From Ignavibacteriaceae bacterium (GTDB lineage Bacteria > Bacteroidota > Ignavibacteria > Ignavibacteriales > Ignavibacteriaceae): 37,649 nt of DNA. The stretch spans positions 1 through 37,649 of the forward strand of contig JABWCL010000036.1 of the NCBI GenBank assembly GCA_013360295.1, read 5' to 3'. A program made the position numbers and the translations under genes. The notes under the pieces were generated by a model. The model was not told the DNA's origin and did not search any database. It worked only from the letters and a program-made list of their open reading frames with translations. Below, piece after piece: positions 7,213 to 37,649 of the stretch (position 1 is its first letter; every line of letters starts with the position of its first letter).

Positions 7213-7529
7213 CTGCACAACACTAACTAACCCCAATCAACCACCACACCACTTCACCCCGAATACCCACAAAAATTCCCCAAACTACCGGCGCTTCGAT
7301 CCGTCCCCGCAGAATTAATGCAGAGAAGAAGCGGCGACTACTCAGCGACCTTGTACTTTTCTCCTCTCTTTTCCTCCCCTTGCCACAGAAAACCTTAAAG
7401 TGCGTTAAATTTGAAAAAAAAATTCTTAATTCTTAATTTTTAATTCTTAATTCATTTGGTAGCTTTCTTTTTCTTTTCCTCTCCCCACTTTTTTTATTAT
7501 TTTGCGAAATTATAAAATTCAGGATTTCT
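7213..7529. other. Intergenic region upstream of the etf operon
   Basis: No gene seen. Bases 7216-7289 are strikingly poor in G on the plus strand (one G at 7261) and rich in C and A. After a mixed stretch, a 7-nt repeat array occupies 7421-7455 and the last 75 bases are AT-rich; the promoter of the etf operon presumably lies there (TTTTGCGAAATTATAAAATTC around 7500-7520), but I cannot place it firmly. AGGA at 7522-7525 serves as ribosome binding site. Confidence 0.5.
7421..7455. repeat. Five degenerate 7-nt tandem repeats (AATTCTT type)
   Basis: Units AATTCTT, AATTCTT, AATTTTT, AATTCTT, AATTCAT. With a shifted register the units begin ATT like those at 719 and 11581. About 75 nt upstream of etfB. 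Confidence 0.7.
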
Positions 7530-11580: not shown

Positions 11581-11615
11581 ATTCTTAATTTTTAATTCTT
11601 AATTTTTAATTGTTA
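11581..11615. repeat. Five degenerate 7-nt tandem repeats (ATTnTTA)
   Basis: Units ATTCTTA, ATTTTTA, ATTCTTA, ATTTTTA, ATTGTTA. The array ends right at the promoter candidate of the sigma factor gene. The preceding stretch 11490-11550 (ATCTGTGGTCATCC, GATCTGCGTTATCTGTGTCC) also looks like a non-coding dispersed repeat, but its period is unclear. Confidence 0.7.
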
Positions 11616-32444: not shown

Positions 32445-34103
32445 TTACTTCATCAAAATCATTTTTCTTGTAATTACCACATCATTACCCGCACGGAGCT
32501 GATAGAAATATATTCCGCTCGATATAACTTTGTAGCGCGGGTTATCTACCCGCGATGAATTGAACTCAATTTTATAACTCCCCGGCGCCTTCTCCTCATT
32601 AACCAGCGTCGCCACTTCCCTCCCTCTCACATCATATATCTTAAGCGTTACTCTGATCCCTGTTCCCTGGTCTCTGTTCTCTGGTACCTGATACCTGATT
32701 TTCGTTGCTGGATTAAAAGGATTTGGGTAGTTCTGAAATAATAGATACTTAAAAGATTGTGTATCATACAATTTAATACCGGAAGCAACCGGGGGGAGTT
32801 CCAGCGCGCCCAGATCAGGGTTGGTGCCCTGCGGAGAGGGGCGCAAATTTCTTAAATAATCATCAGGGGGAGAATTAATCACCGCGCTGTTATAACTGAA
32901 TGAGCTCCTCCCTGCATTCAAAGCAGGGCTCGCTCCCTGAACGCTGTAAAGGGTGTCACCGGCTTCAAAAAGCGGGTCGGTGTCCAGGTTCCCTTCCCCC
33001 TGAAATCCCCCTCTGACTATGTTATAAAATAACTTAATATTTCCGCTTAAAAATCCAAATCCGGTGTCAACGGTTGTATTCCAAATAATATTATTAAAAA
33101 ATACAGCTTCAGAATTTTGCGCGTTACTTGAAAGAGTAAATGAAGCCAGATATGTTGAAGTGTTTTCAGCAATTGTATTATTGATGAATTTATAATATCC
33201 CATTAAAAAACGTAACAGGCTGGCTCCGGAGACTGTATTACTGTTCGCGGTTATAATATTGTTTATAAAATCAACCTTAGGCAACCCGGCCATTTCCATA
33301 AAAGACGCAACAACAGCCGCGGATTTTGAAACATTACCGCTGATATAATTTCCCTCTATAAGTATTCTCGAAGTATCACTTATACCGCCGTGAATAAAAA
33401 TCGCCCCTCCCACGGCTAAAGTGGTCACTGATGCTCCTTTATTACGCGAAACAATATTTCTAACAAACCTGCCATTCCCCACAAGATATACCCCGGCGCC
33501 GGCTGCATTCATATAAGAGACGCTGCTTAAGCAGGCTAATTCATTTCCGGATATGATATTGTCTTCAATTATCCAGTAATTAAAAGCATTTTTAGCAGGC
33601 CACATACAAATTCCCCCGCCTTCCGTGGCAGCTGCAGCGGCAATAATATTATCCTTTATGATGTTGTGACAAAGTTTCATCCCTCCGCCAAATAATGCAA
33701 CTCCTCCCCCTTCATATCCGGTCCAGTTCCCGTCAGCAAGTTTAGTCCCTAGGCCGCCGGTAATTGTGAATCCGGTTATCACCGTATTAGTATCCGTATC
33801 GCCATAGATCAGTATTGTTGATCCCGTATCGCTGTAGACAGGGAAAAAGCCATTGATAACAGTATTACGGATGTGAGAAGGATTGGAGTCAAGAATGAAG
33901 TGGCTGGCAAGAAGGATCTTTTTGGTTATGACAAGGTTTTCGATGTACGTGCCTTCAGCTACAAGCACCGTATCACCATTAACCGCGGCCTCAATGGCGT
34001 CACGGATTGAGGGATAATCGCCCGGGACAGTCCTGATAGTTCCGGATATGTCACAAAACGCAATAGCAAAGAAGATCAGAAGCAATGAACATCGAACCGG
34101 CAT
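32445..34103 (-). CDS. T9SS-secreted right-handed beta-helix protein
   Basis: A 552-residue secreted protein with a signal peptide (about 1-20). It opens with GTIRTVPGDYPSIRDAIEAAVNGDTVLVAEGTY, the start typical of pectate-lyase-like parallel beta-helix proteins, and continues with many NNI, GGGI and EGNYISGN turns to about 390. DPLFEAGD and NPDLGALE mark a choice-of-anchor Q type end (about 400-440). The T9SS type A sorting domain covers about 462-552 (NYPNPFNPATKI, YDVRGREVATLVNEEKAPGS, SSGIYFYQLRAG). No catalytic residues of a lyase can be confirmed. Two segments of the sorting domain are coded by repeat DNA: a 7-nt array at 32653-32701 and a palindrome at 32536-32554. Confidence 0.88.
   Translation of the reverse strand: MPVRCSLLLIFFAIAFCDISGTIRTVPGDYPSIRDAIEAAVNGDTVLVAEGTYIENLVITKKILLASHFILDSNPSHIRNTVINGFFPVYSDTGSTILIYGDTDTNTVITGFTITGGLGTKLADGNWTGYEGGGVALFGGGMKLCHNIIKDNIIAAAAATEGGGICMWPAKNAFNYWIIEDNIISGNELACLSSVSYMNAAGAGVYLVGNGRFVRNIVSRNKGASVTTLAVGGAIFIHGGISDTSRILIEGNYISGNVSKSAAVVASFMEMAGLPKVDFINNIITANSNTVSGASLLRFLMGYYKFINNTIAENTSTYLASFTLSSNAQNSEAVFFNNIIWNTTVDTGFGFLSGNIKLFYNIVRGGFQGEGNLDTDPLFEAGDTLYSVQGASPALNAGRSSFSYNSAVINSPPDDYLRNLRPSPQGTNPDLGALELPPVASGIKLYDTQSFKYLLFQNYPNPFNPATKIRYQVPENRDQGTGIRVTLKIYDVRGREVATLVNEEKAPGSYKIEFNSSRVDNPRYKVISSGIYFYQLRAGNDVVITRKMILMK
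32536..32554. repeat. Palindrome inside the T9SS sorting domain (552-residue protein)
   Basis: CGCGGGT (32536-32542) pairs with ACCCGCG (32548-32554), 5-nt loop. On the coding strand it gives the extra residues RVDNPRYK just before SSGIYF, where the protein at 28142 has only a short GAQGF turn. Confidence 0.65.
32653..32701. repeat. Seven 7-nt tandem repeats inside the sorting domain (552-residue protein)
   Basis: Units on plus: CTGATCC, CTGTTCC, CTGGTCT, CTGTTCT, CTGGTAC, CTGATAC, CTGATTT. Each starts CTG and has T at position 5. Translated on minus they give IRYQVPENRDQGTGIR. Confidence 0.8.
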
Positions 34104-34382
34104 AAAGTATAAATTATTTTGATAGATTAAATAGGGAGCCCGGTGGGTGTTCGAACAATCACCCTGAGCATCCTATCAGAGTTAAATCAATCTCACAAGG
34201 CAATCCCGGAGGAAAAGCCTTAAAACGGTCCAGATAATTAAATAGTTTTATTCCCTTAATAAAACTATTGAAATAAAAATATTTTTACAACTATTAAAAT
34301 AAATTATTACGGCTTGAAGGGCCGGCCGGTTGGAAAGGACAGCCATTTTTCGTTGAAAATGGGTACCGTTATTACCAATCAC

Positions 34383-34440
34383 TCTCACCCTAAATCCCTC
34401 TCCTTGCGAAGGAGAGGAACTTTTTTGAAAACCGGGGCAG
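34383..34440. repeat. Hairpin-type intergenic repeat (reverse orientation)
   Basis: TCACCCTAAAT precedes a 9-bp perfect stem CCTCTCCTT (34397-34405), loop GCG, AAGGAGAGG (34409-34417). Read on minus it is hairpin then GGGATTTAGGGTGAGAG, the same plan as 7158-7212. Confidence 0.7.
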
Positions 34441-34471
34441 TCCCCGTAACTTTGATAATAAAGCATCATAA

Positions 34472-34511
34472 TTCACCCCAGCCCCCGCGGGGAGACCCGC
34501 GGGGGAGGGGC
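34472..34511. repeat. Hairpin-type intergenic repeat with 10-bp GC stem
   Basis: TTCACCCCAG precedes CCCCCGCGGG (34482-34491), loop GAGA, CCCGCGGGGG (34496-34505). Same hairpin plus GGGGTGA plan, on minus, as the other copies. Confidence 0.7.
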
Positions 34512-34543
34512 TTGCGCTTTGTGAGTTTATCCGTCCCCATATA

Positions 34544-37500
34544 TCACTTCATCAAAATCATCTTCTTTGAAATTACAACATCACTCCCCGCGCGGAGCTG
34601 ATAGAAATATACTCCGCTGCTAAGTTCACTACCGCGCAGATTAGTAATCCGCGCTACGGAGAAATCGACTTCATAACTCCCCGGCGCCTTCTCTTCATTT
34701 ACCAACGTTGCTACTTCCCTCCCCATGACATCATACACTTTAAGCGTAACCCTGATCCCTGTTCCCTGGTCTCTGTTCTCTGGTACCTGACACCTGATTT
34801 TTGTTGATGGATTAAAGGGATTAGGATAGTTTTGTGAAAGTGTGTATTCGGTCGGCAGAGCTGTTTCATCTTCGGATTCGATATCTGTCAGTGAGTGCTC
34901 AATGGCGCCAAGATCGGGATTCTCTCTCGTTGCCGGCTGCGGTCGAAGATCACCAAAGAAATCCCTGTCAGGTGCTGCAAGTGGTGTTCCGCCTACTGTC
35001 CATTGCGGCATACCGGCACCCAGCGCAGGACTGCTGCTGCTTAACCTGTAATAAGGATCATTTTCTGCAAACTGAGGATTCGACGAAGTATTCCCAAACC
35101 CTGTATACCCTGCGTAAAAACAGTTAAAATTAGCTGAAAGCACAGTCGGGCTTGTAGCTGACCTGAACATTATTTGTCTGCTTCCTGCAGTGGGATTCCA
35201 TATTATATTATTCATCAGCCCGACACTCATCGGAAGGGTTCCCACATAAATTACATAGTTCCCGTTGTTATCAGCCATTGTATTATTAATGAACCAGGCG
35301 TAAGTTCCTCTCAGGTGAATTAATCCGGTATCTCTGACAGCAGTAGAATTAACATATATGGGATAAGCAATGTTTTTAACCATAATATTATTTTGAAATG
35401 TCAGGCGGGGTATCCGGCCAATGGTTAAATTCTCCGGGGCGTATGTATGCATCACACTTCCCCAGGTACTTCTGTTACCCGTAAACAAATTTCCGTCAAT
35501 CAGGATTATTGCCGTGCTCGTTGTGTTGGAATAGACACCGATAGCTCCCGACGTGCTTCCTGAGGGCGCACTTAACCCTGATATTAGAAGCCATCGGGCA
35601 GCGTTATTGATAAATCTGTTTCTTATAATCTTTCCGCTTCCGGTCAGATAAACTCCGCCTCCGCCTGCCCAGCGGCCGCTCGCGTCATTTCCCTCAATGA
35701 GGTTATCTGATATCTCAAATCCTGTTATTGTCCCTCGGGCATTATCAATATTTATACCTGCTCCCACCGCATCGGGAAGAGCGGATGTTCCCTTTAATAT
35801 GTTATTTATTATCCGGTTGAAACGAATTGTTGCGCCTCCGGCAAGTATGTTTATTCCGCCGCCGCCGATGTAGTAATAACCGTCTTTAGCCACAAACTTT
35901 GTTCCGGTTCCATTTGTGATTGTAAGGCCAGAAATAATTGTACTTGTATCCGCACCGATACCGATATTTATCACGCTACCTGAATCAGGATTAACGGCAG
36001 CTTCACCGGAAATGATGGTTCGGGAAATATGAGAAGTATCGCCGTCAGTAATGAATAAACTCGCCAGTGTGATCTTTTTGTTCAGCACCAGGTTTTCCAG
36101 ATAAGTACCTTCGGAAACAAGAACGATATTTCCGTCTACTGCTGCATTGATTGCTTGCTGTATCTTCGGATAATCCTGCGGGACGCGGATTGTCGTACCT
36201 GTGAACGGAGCGCCGAGCGGATGTTCAATCGCGCCAAGATCAGGATTTGACCCCGCCGGTAGTGGCCTTAAATTGCCCAAAAAATCTTTTGCAGGAGCAG
36301 AGAGTCCTACACCTCCGACAGTATATTGCACCATTGCCGCACCTATTGCCCGGCTTGAATCACTTAAGCGAAAATATGGATCTCCCGGAATAAAATTCGG
36401 ATTGTCGCTGATGTTACCGGTACCGGTGCGCCCGCCATAAATACAATTATAGTTTGTGTAAACCACACTTGAAGTAACGCTCGAATGGAATAGGAAAGCA
36501 GCTTGACTCCCAGCGGAAATCCATATTATATTATTTAGAAAAAGCGCCCGATGCGGTGTCTGCGCGAACCTTACGGCGCACAGTCCAGTATTTTCAGCAA
36601 TTGTATTATTTACGAAATAGGAGTATGTCCTCGATAGAGCAATTGGGCCGTTAGCAGTTGGGTACCCCGGTGGTACCGGCAGGGCAATATTATTTACCAT
36701 AATGTTATTATGAAATGTCAGATTTGGAATTCTGTTTAATTCACTGGTACTGCTACCGCTTCCAAATGCACTGCCGTACGTCGCTTTATTAGCTGTAAAA
36801 TAGTTCCCCTCTATCAGGGCGGTGGCAGAGCTATTGCTATTTGAAAGATAATTTATCGCTCCTGATGCACACGCTTCTGTGGGTACTCCAGTAATATCAA
36901 TAGTAACCGCTGAATTATTTATAAATTTGTTTTTCAGTATTTTGCCGTTACCCGTAAGCGCGCAAGCCCCGCCGCCGCTCCAGGATCCTTTCACCTCATT
37001 TGACTGAAATAGATTATCCGATATCTCCCAATCGGTGATCGCCCCGAGCACATTAAGGATGGCAATCCCCCCACCCGTAGCGTATGGTATTGACTGAGTG
37101 CCCGTTACTATATTATTAACAATTCTATTCGAATGTATCGTAGCCGCGCCAGCAAAAATCATTATCCCTCCGCCGGCGATATAGTAATAACCATCGTAGT
37201 ATATTCTTGCTCCCCGGCCGTTAGTAATAGTAAATCCGGTAATCAGTGTGTTAATGTTTGACTGGTAAAAAACTCCTATCACACTTGCAGAATCGGCATT
37301 TGTAAATCCGCTTCCGTCTATAATCGTCTGGGATATATGTGAAGTGTCGCCGTCAATAAGAAATAAACTTGCAAGTTTGATCACTTTATTAATCTGCAGG
37401 TTTTCAACATACACTCCTTCAGAAACGAGAACTGTATCGCCGTTCACGGCAGCGTTAATTGCAAGCTGGATTTTTGCATAATCCTGGGGCACGCGGCGAA

Positions 37501-37567
37501 TAGTTCCTTCCGCGGTAAAAAGGGTTGTTAGTACCATAAAGAGAAGTAATGTAACGTCTGCGCGCAT
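34544..37567 (-). CDS. T9SS-secreted protein with two tandem beta-helix units
   Basis: A 1007-residue secreted protein. The ATG at 37567 is preferred over 37612 because AAGG precedes it and a clean signal peptide follows (MRADVTLLLFMVLTTLFTAEG). Two homologous units of about 430 residues follow, each opening with IRxVPQDYxKIQxAINAAV and closing with NPDLGAIEH: residues about 22-450 and 455-890. Each is a right-handed parallel beta-helix with N-rich turns. The C-terminus is a T9SS type A domain (NYPNPFNPSTKI ... SSGVYFYQLRAGSDVVISKKMILMK). It is a paralogue of the 552-residue protein, which has a single unit. No enzymatic residues are evident; an adhesive or scaffold role is likely but unproven. 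Confidence 0.88.
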   Translation of the reverse strand: MRADVTLLLFMVLTTLFTAEGTIRRVPQDYAKIQLAINAAVNGDTVLVSEGVYVENLQINKVIKLASLFLIDGDTSHISQTIIDGSGFTNADSASVIGVFYQSNINTLITGFTITNGRGARIYYDGYYYIAGGGIMIFAGAATIHSNRIVNNIVTGTQSIPYATGGGIAILNVLGAITDWEISDNLFQSNEVKGSWSGGGACALTGNGKILKNKFINNSAVTIDITGVPTEACASGAINYLSNSNSSATALIEGNYFTANKATYGSAFGSGSSTSELNRIPNLTFHNNIMVNNIALPVPPGYPTANGPIALSRTYSYFVNNTIAENTGLCAVRFAQTPHRALFLNNIIWISAGSQAAFLFHSSVTSSVVYTNYNCIYGGRTGTGNISDNPNFIPGDPYFRLSDSSRAIGAAMVQYTVGGVGLSAPAKDFLGNLRPLPAGSNPDLGAIEHPLGAPFTGTTIRVPQDYPKIQQAINAAVDGNIVLVSEGTYLENLVLNKKITLASLFITDGDTSHISRTIISGEAAVNPDSGSVINIGIGADTSTIISGLTITNGTGTKFVAKDGYYYIGGGGINILAGGATIRFNRIINNILKGTSALPDAVGAGINIDNARGTITGFEISDNLIEGNDASGRWAGGGGVYLTGSGKIIRNRFINNAARWLLISGLSAPSGSTSGAIGVYSNTTSTAIILIDGNLFTGNRSTWGSVMHTYAPENLTIGRIPRLTFQNNIMVKNIAYPIYVNSTAVRDTGLIHLRGTYAWFINNTMADNNGNYVIYVGTLPMSVGLMNNIIWNPTAGSRQIMFRSATSPTVLSANFNCFYAGYTGFGNTSSNPQFAENDPYYRLSSSSPALGAGMPQWTVGGTPLAAPDRDFFGDLRPQPATRENPDLGAIEHSLTDIESEDETALPTEYTLSQNYPNPFNPSTKIRCQVPENRDQGTGIRVTLKVYDVMGREVATLVNEEKAPGSYEVDFSVARITNLRGSELSSGVYFYQLRAGSDVVISKKMILMK
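34634..34654. repeat. Palindrome inside the T9SS sorting domain (1007-residue protein)
   Basis: GCGCAGATT (34634-34642) pairs with AATCCGCGC (34646-34654) with one G-T type mismatch, loop AGT. On the coding strand it reads GTAGCGCGGATTACTAATC and gives VARITNLRG just before SELSSGVYF. Confidence 0.65.
34752..34800. repeat. Seven 7-nt tandem repeats inside the sorting domain (1007-residue protein)
   Basis: Units CTGATCC, CTGTTCC, CTGGTCT, CTGTTCT, CTGGTAC, CTGACAC, CTGATTT. Only one base differs from the array at 32653-32701. On minus it encodes IRCQVPENRDQGTGIR. Confidence 0.8.
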
Positions 37568-37649
37568 AAAATACCTTTTGGTGTTTAGTGATAAAAAAAA
37601 TGCTTCGCGCAAACATATATTAAAAAGGAGGGGGGAGGTTAACTATATT

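Follow-up and report, generated by a model that had tools for sequence, protein, structure and literature searches.

Heptamer repeats of a mostly intergenic family are translated within a loop of type IX secretion sorting domains in an Ignavibacteriaceae genome

The DNA analysed here (the window) is contig C90, 37,649 bases long, of an Ignavibacteriaceae genome of 4.46 Mb in 92 contigs (in the labels used below, C denotes a contig, L a locus, G000 this source genome, G001 a sister genome and G053 another genome of the order Ignavibacteriales). Two paralogous genes in the window each carry a seven-unit array of a 7-nt repeat, which is translated in frame within the C-terminal sorting domain of the type IX secretion system (T9SS) (Table 1). 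Our best reading, to which we assign a probability of roughly 0.7, is that these arrays occupy a length-tolerant loop in which read-through intergenic repeats survive, and that filled loops were spread by duplication and exchange. The units of array 1 (CTGATCC, CTGTTCC, CTGGTCT, CTGTTCT, CTGGTAC, CTGATAC and CTGATTT) are all different, and array 2 is identical to array 1 except for one off-consensus unit, CTGACAC. The first-pass annotation of this DNA had located both arrays in frame in T9SS sorting domains, and translation of the minus strand, that is from the CAG side, gave the peptide that it had reported, the hydrophilic IR(Y/C)QVPENRDQGTGIR. However, its view that the array replaces the normal strand has to be corrected, since IRYQVP is an ordinary beta-1 strand and the array spans the end of this strand plus the loop. 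A neighbouring T9SS protein of the window had been described as lacking such an array; this holds, although its loop (the ten residues AAKSGSASQR) has the same length as the array loops.

The window arrays belong to a repeat family that is dispersed over the genome. Three consecutive CTGNTNY units were found in 80 windows of G000, compared to none for the reversed pattern, and the five-unit pattern with up to two mismatches was found in 85 windows, again compared to none. The 80 windows were merged by hand into 30 arrays, of which 20 lie outside any open reading frame (ORF) of at least 150 aa in a stop-to-stop mapping, some of them at contig ends. The family therefore has the attributes of a heptamer repeat (7-nt unit, tandem, dispersed, mostly non-coding), and the idea that the window arrays are of a type normally found between genes is borne out. 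The other 10 arrays are located inside nine genes, and all nine encode a T9SS sorting domain. All 10 coding arrays are in frame, and in all 10 the CAG strand is the coding one. For arrays 1 and 2, the CAG strand is open in all three frames, whereas the CTG strand has stops in two of the three. Five of the coding arrays, in four genes, are situated in the sorting-domain loop: two in C90, one in C75, and two in C42 that are pieces of one interrupted stretch. The two window loops and the C75 loop are referred to as the array trio. The longest array loop (L104, 1958-2065, in C42 of G000) is interrupted by GPFDGAQGK, coded by CCCTTCGACGGGGCTCAGGG, and a similar element, CTTCGACAAGCTCAG, fills a loop in L268.

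A 7-nt unit could also act as a contingency switch, in which the gain or loss of one unit shifts the frame, removes the sorting domain and makes secretion flicker. It fits with this idea that 7 is not a multiple of 3 and that most of the sorting domain lies downstream of both window arrays, whose ends are about 68 residues from the C-terminus. We nevertheless consider a switch very improbable, because the seven units of array 1 are all different rather than near-identical, which makes them a poor substrate for slippage, and because every one of the coding arrays is in frame.

Among 59 genomes scanned, the five-unit CTGNTNY pattern was present in two (G000 and G003) and was absent from G001. 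Four units of the looser pattern YTGNTNN were found in 32 of the 59 genomes, but control matches also occurred in many of them, so that this pattern is informative only where it lies far above its control (142 versus 0 in G000, 123 versus 4 in G001 and 187 versus 47 in G053). The first 100 of the 142 places in G000 were mapped, so that AT-rich arrays are covered up to contig C33. The window units are not TAACTGA; a rotation of that heptamer, CTGATAA, was seen in relatives such as G002 and G015.

The domain that hosts the arrays is very numerous in G000, with 301 first-look TIGR04183 candidates, of which at least 150 exceed the cut-off (all 150 that were scored passed), and at least 150 sorting-domain matches were obtained in each of four genomes searched. 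In both array proteins the TIGR04183 match stops three residues short of the C-terminus. To place the insert in the fold, as the first-pass annotation had suggested, sorting domain 1 was modelled with AlphaFold2 together with 49 aligned relatives (mean pLDDT 82.6, pTM 0.72). The predicted structure is nearly all beta, with six strands, and the array codes for domain residues 15-30, which in this prediction run from the last part of beta-1 through the beta-1/beta-2 loop into the first part of beta-2. At the sequence level, a profile match to 8glj chain D was obtained (E 8.3e-05). Foldseek retrieved the T9SS-bound domains 8glk, 8gl8 and 8gl6 at low TMq values of 0.40-0.45 and no match with an E-value of 0.001 or less, and the best VIA match was to a dextranase domain (Z 8.4, rmsd 2.5, 89 aligned). 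For the predicted model, the fold searches yield just a general Ig-like arrangement.

To compare loops, we assembled 352 sorting domains, 122 with a long loop and 230 with a standard short loop. The G000 sample is partial, with 86 domains examined against 262-301 first-look candidates (27 long, 59 standard). G001 contributed 24 long and 30 standard loops, G053 28 and 29, a set of named relatives 41 and 97, and G003 17 domains in all, two of them with a long loop. For the named relatives, 143 domains were found and 138 counted, five being left out because the start of beta-2 could not be parsed. G053 and the named locus L302 represent the same organism, and a few domains are therefore counted twice.

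The codon choice of the arrays is more 7-periodic than the peptide requires. Every domain segment, along with 400 synonymous recodings that followed the codon usage of the examined genes, was scored for 7-nt periodicity. The array trio scored 17 of 21 against recoded means of 10.8-11.5, with p-values of 0.0025-0.005 that are uncorrected for the number of tests (array 1, p = 0.005; array 2, p = 0.0025). At p ≤ 0.01, the test marked 6 of 27 long loops (0.3 expected) and 1 of 59 standard loops in G000, 1 of 24 and 2 of 30 in G001, 1 of 28 and 0 of 29 in G053, and none of the 17 domains in G003. Among the named relatives, 3 of 41 long loops were marked, as were 15 of 97 standard loops (1.0 expected), the latter deriving from 12 assemblies. 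A simple count of at least 13 matches in 21, with same-length windows upstream in the same genes as controls, gave the following values in G000: long 10/27, control 0/540; standard 2/59, control 8/1180. The corresponding values were 7/24 (3/480) and 5/30 (1/600) in G001, 2/28 (3/560) and 0/29 (0/580) in G053, 10/41 (11/780) and 29/97 (4/1940) in the named relatives, and 0/17 (0/340) for all G003 domains. The number of periodic standard loops in the named relatives depended on the test, from 31 of 97 in the first version to 29 once the region was narrowed and other short periods were filtered out, and to 15 with synonymous recoding.

These data bear directly on the possibility that the arrays are an ordinary feature of the domain, with the 7-nt periodicity arising by itself from IxYQ(L/V)P, a conserved motif of the strand, and the codons used for it. 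The motif is compatible with a 7-nt period, and significant periodicity is more common in domains with the motif (16/83) than in those without it (13/269). In addition, IRYQVPEN occurs in G001 (L157/L247, IRYQVPENSGRESVVRV) with non-periodic codons that score 9 against 9.4 expected, which counts against our reading. The first-pass annotation had named the same peptide with other codons in a relative as the sign of an ordinary domain feature; this was found for the strand half only, and because of it the strand half of the peptide need not derive from the repeat. Still, we regard the ordinary-feature explanation as quite unlikely for the arrays, in view of the synonymous recoding of the trio, of the recurrence of 15-mers from G000 loops outside sorting domains, and of palindromes that fill the same loop independently of the motif. 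The 15-mers of domain DNA were matched to DNA of the same genome in which sorting domains had been masked, for G000 about 615 kb in partly overlapping loci. Coverage was 6.4% in strand plus loop, 2.4% in the next 25 codons and 3.3% in the rest. A 15-mer match in strand or loop was found in 14 of the 86 G000 domains, and 10 of the 12 domains with at least 15 covered bases have heptamer loops. The strand motif may instead have served as the starting point from which the array grew, a possibility helped by the higher proportion of significant domains among those that bear the motif.

The earlier focus on CTG-type arrays is valid but too narrow, since other heptamer flavours and unrelated palindromes fill the same loop in G000 and in its relatives. 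Perfect inverted arms of at least 9 nt were found in 30 of the 122 long loops, compared to 14 of 4840 same-length upstream windows of the same genes. By set, the long loops with such arms numbered 1 of 27 in G000, 4 of 24 in G001, 16 of 28 in G053, 9 of 41 in the named relatives and 0 of 2 in G003. The window arrays themselves were considered as palindromes and rejected, neither loop having inverted arms of at least 8 nt. The G053 loop palindromes include GTAGGGGACGAAAATTTTCGTCCCCTAC (VGDENFRPL), one with a nested CCTGCCGGCAGG core (LPAGRQG), one with a variant of this core (LPAGWQG), and also GTAGAGCGAAACG..., GTAGAGCGAGATT..., GTAGGGACAAGTCGCGACTTGTCCCTAC, GTAGAGACGACTCGGCGAGTCGTCTCTAC and CCCTCACCC...GGGTGAGGG. 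One palindrome pattern occurs at 11 places in G053, seven of them identical 28-mers and four sharing a 21-base core. Six of these places are sorting-domain loops (C2, C58, C68 twice, C94 and C99); of the other five, one is in a 134-aa frame with an MPNHVHGII stretch known from tyrosine transposases, and four are only in stop-to-stop frames of 60-131 aa. The G053 inserts resemble repetitive extragenic palindromes (REPs) of the GTAG type, both in their GTAG tag, with which several loop palindromes start, and in their multiple dispersed copies. A tyrosine transposase (RAYT) would be a candidate mover of these inserts; matches to the transposase family PF01797 numbered three in G000, three in G001, one in G003 and three in G053. 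One of those in G001 (C99:14132-14497; L247/L361) lies roughly 180 bases away from a sorting domain (C99:13666-13950) with the palindrome CCCCTTTGACAAAGGGG in its loop. When heptamers (at least 13/21) and palindromes (at least 9 nt) were combined, 59 of 122 long loops were marked, compared to 36 of 230 standard loops; 29 of these 36 belong to the named relatives, a set in which synonymous recoding left only 15 standard loops significant.

The relationships among paralogs suggest, at the level of DNA identity, that the repeat part was exchanged or is younger than its surroundings. Within the array trio, the loop DNA is identical at 42/45, 43/45 and 40/45 positions (89-96%), compared to 155/204, 143/195 and 138/195 (71-76%) after the loop, and the G053 loops are 76-88% identical compared to 57-70% in the DNA that follows. 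Homologs among the examined G001 loci show other loop states: C26/L156 (68% identical) is heptamer-like in both genomes, C19/L170 (61%) has an array in one and none in the other, and P0002/L153 (44%) pairs CAG-GTA units with CAATTAC units. A strict model of one heptamer flavour for G000 and another for G001 was rejected, because the G001 model was empty (no arrays outside sorting domains in the examined DNA) and because a degenerate array of the CTG flavour in L244 of G001 contradicts a strict match.

Several further observations weigh against our reading. Good conservation extends to the DNA immediately preceding the loop (79-86% in the trio, 71-90% in G053), and in a C27 trio the loop (90-93%) and the following DNA (86-92%) are equally alike; for these two reasons the contrast between loop and flank is only suggestive. 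The array trio probably derives from a single event. No empty ortholog of the two window genes was found, and the best long match among the examined G001 loci, with 44% identity over 634 aa, carries a heptamer array of another kind. As L244 illustrates, flavour is not always matched to genome. G003 has heptamers elsewhere, yet none of its 17 examined domains shows an array or a palindrome. No excess of 15-mers in the loop was seen in G001 (1.5%, versus 4.7% in the rest), G053 (2.9% versus 6.7%) or G003 (0% in both), for which the compared DNA was much smaller (193, 203 and 36 kb, respectively). The palindrome controls in the rest of the domain gave 16 of 2420 windows, of which 11 of 480 were in G001, so that the control is not clean in that genome. 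Finally, long-loop domains were picked deliberately, and the ranking of the named loci followed their similarity to the domain in the window; the fractions given here therefore do not represent genome frequencies.

The high identity of the loop within the trio could also reflect a gained function, in which a charged hydrophilic loop adjusts how the T9SS shuttle, translocon or sortase handles the protein and is kept by selection. The hydrophilic nature of the array peptide agrees with this explanation. It is nonetheless unlikely, considering that unrelated peptides occupy the same loop in other species (VGDENFRPL, VERNAVSL, ALTRPSDTLSPRER and INDQ) and that 230 of the 352 examined domains have the standard short loop. 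The term 'domesticated', used in the first-pass annotation, is not borne out, the analysis giving no sign of gained function.

The reading that we prefer is that of a tolerant loop. The arrays are members of the genome-wide, mostly intergenic heptamer family that would have come into the beta-1/beta-2 loop or expanded there, by insertion or by slippage, and their retention would be due to the loop's tolerance of extra residues and to the CAG strand, which is readable in all frames. Being stop-free in every frame, this strand gives similar, hydrophilic peptides whichever of the three is read (7 mod 3 = 1). In related species, heptamers of other flavours and REP-like palindromes occupy the same loop, and duplication of paralogs together with sequence exchange, presumably by recombination, would then have spread filled loops among the many sorting-domain genes. 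A wider version, which we put forward tentatively and hold at slightly less than even odds, is that the beta-1/beta-2 loop is a general safe harbour across the Ignavibacteriales. In this version unrelated repeats (heptamer flavours, GTAG palindromes and others, some nested) would be translated there repeatedly, and IxYQ(L/V)P, a motif that two heptamer units can encode, would seed the heptamer kind. If so, mobile or slipping repeats would keep generating new exported peptides.

The sorting-domain loop is not the only site with repeats, and the one-loop scope of the first-pass annotation was in this respect too narrow. The other five coding arrays of G000, in five genes (four in C3, one in C9), lie in an upstream second beta-hairpin, N(Y/..)GFE(I/V)(Q/E)R...W..(I/V)GF, and a further C3 gene (L113) has a shorter array of the same kind. 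This motif was found 15 times in the examined DNA (eight in G000, five in the named loci, one each in G001 and G053). Five of the eight G000 copies have heptamer arrays, which together with the gene at C3:113190 makes six genes; the G053 copy, also represented by the named locus L302, has heptamers plus a palindrome, and the remaining copies showed no repeats by eye. Second hairpins with repeats were noted at loci L113, L114, L117 and L248. In L268, the LPAGRQG peptide is present in a later loop, before SGIYFY, and other loops of the domain may thus take repeats as well.

Heptamers are also the unit of the short tandemly repeated repetitive (STRR) sequences of cyanobacteria. Translated non-coding repeats are already known from Rickettsia and from scattered ORFs. 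The TAACTGA heptamers are described as tandem, mostly intergenic and present in some Bacteroidetes among other groups, with 11 ORFs that contain 'reverse' repeats (MacGregor 2015, PMC4679880). The G000 arrays share with them the 7-nt tandem units, the mostly intergenic location and a single readable orientation, but differ in unit sequence and are found repeatedly at a single homologous inner loop of one domain. The Rickettsia palindromic elements (RPEs) are described as tolerated in-frame inserts in unrelated protein genes (Ogata 2000, 2002, as reviewed in PMC10969869). Our repeats are likewise in frame and tolerated, whereas here several unrelated repeat families are found in one loop of one secretion domain, and the window repeat is not palindromic. 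GTAG/CGTC REPs, of which the GTAG kind is reported for Proteobacteria, Cyanobacteria, Chloroflexi and the PVC group, with intragenic copies in replication and repair genes (Di Nocera 2013, PMC3733652), have GTAG at one end of the palindrome and are in part intragenic, and they match the GTAG...CTAC inserts of the G053 loops. The RU elements of enterobacteria are described as small, mobile, intragenic repeats with reading frames that resemble miniature inverted-repeat transposable elements (103-168 bp; Delihas 2007, PMC2759123); they are similar in being small repeats with reading frames inside genes, but are longer and occur in various genes. With TIGR04183/PF18962, the host domain of the arrays, the likeness is limited to the domain itself. 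No paper that places translated genomic repeats in T9SS sorting domains was found in the open-access literature by title or start of abstract. The new element is that unrelated repeat families turn up again and again at the same homologous loop of a secretion signal. Because unrelated repeats have repeatedly filled one loop of a numerous secretion domain, and have done so in several species, nature offers an experiment that can be counted and that bears on the entry of repeat DNA into proteins, on the loops able to tolerate it and on whether it ever becomes useful. For annotation, it is a warning that peptides such as ENREQGTE, VGDENFRPL and LPAGRQG may be repeat DNA and not domain signatures.

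Table 1. Features of the window discussed in the text.
Feature	Position	Strand	Details
Heptamer array 1, 7 units CTGNTNN	32653..32701	+ (coding strand -)	encodes residues 469-484, IRYQVPENRDQGTGIR, of the 552-aa protein
Heptamer array 2, 7 units, one off consensus	34752..34800	+ (coding strand -)	encodes residues 939-954, IRCQVPENRDQGTGIR, of the 1022-aa protein
Gene, 552-aa protein, C-terminal T9SS type A sorting domain	32445..34103	-	TIGR04183 30.9 bits (cut-off 23); PF18962 29 bits (cut-off 27)
Gene, 1022-aa paralog, T9SS sorting domain	34544..37612	-	TIGR04183 25.5 bits (cut-off 23); PF18962 27.1 bits (cut-off 27)
T9SS sorting domain 1, 98 aa	32448..32741	-	predicted beta-1 12-19, loop 20-28, beta-2 29-36
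T9SS sorting domain 2, 98 aa	34547..34840	-	78% identical to domain 1
Neighbouring T9SS protein, 1273 aa	28142..31963	-	loop of equal length, no array; in-window comparison

Both halves of the 1022-aa protein are similar to the 552-aa protein, and the 1022-aa protein also gave weak NosD and choice-of-anchor Q matches below the cut-off. Three more heptamer arrays are present in the window, all AT-rich (718-749, 7421-7453 and 11581-11615, with AATTATC, AATTCTT and ATTCTTA units). Between the two array genes there are REP-like inverted repeats at 34392-34422 and 34477-34510, with arms that are 86-87% complementary, the first of which resembles a palindrome within a sorting-domain loop of the sister genome (G001 L150).

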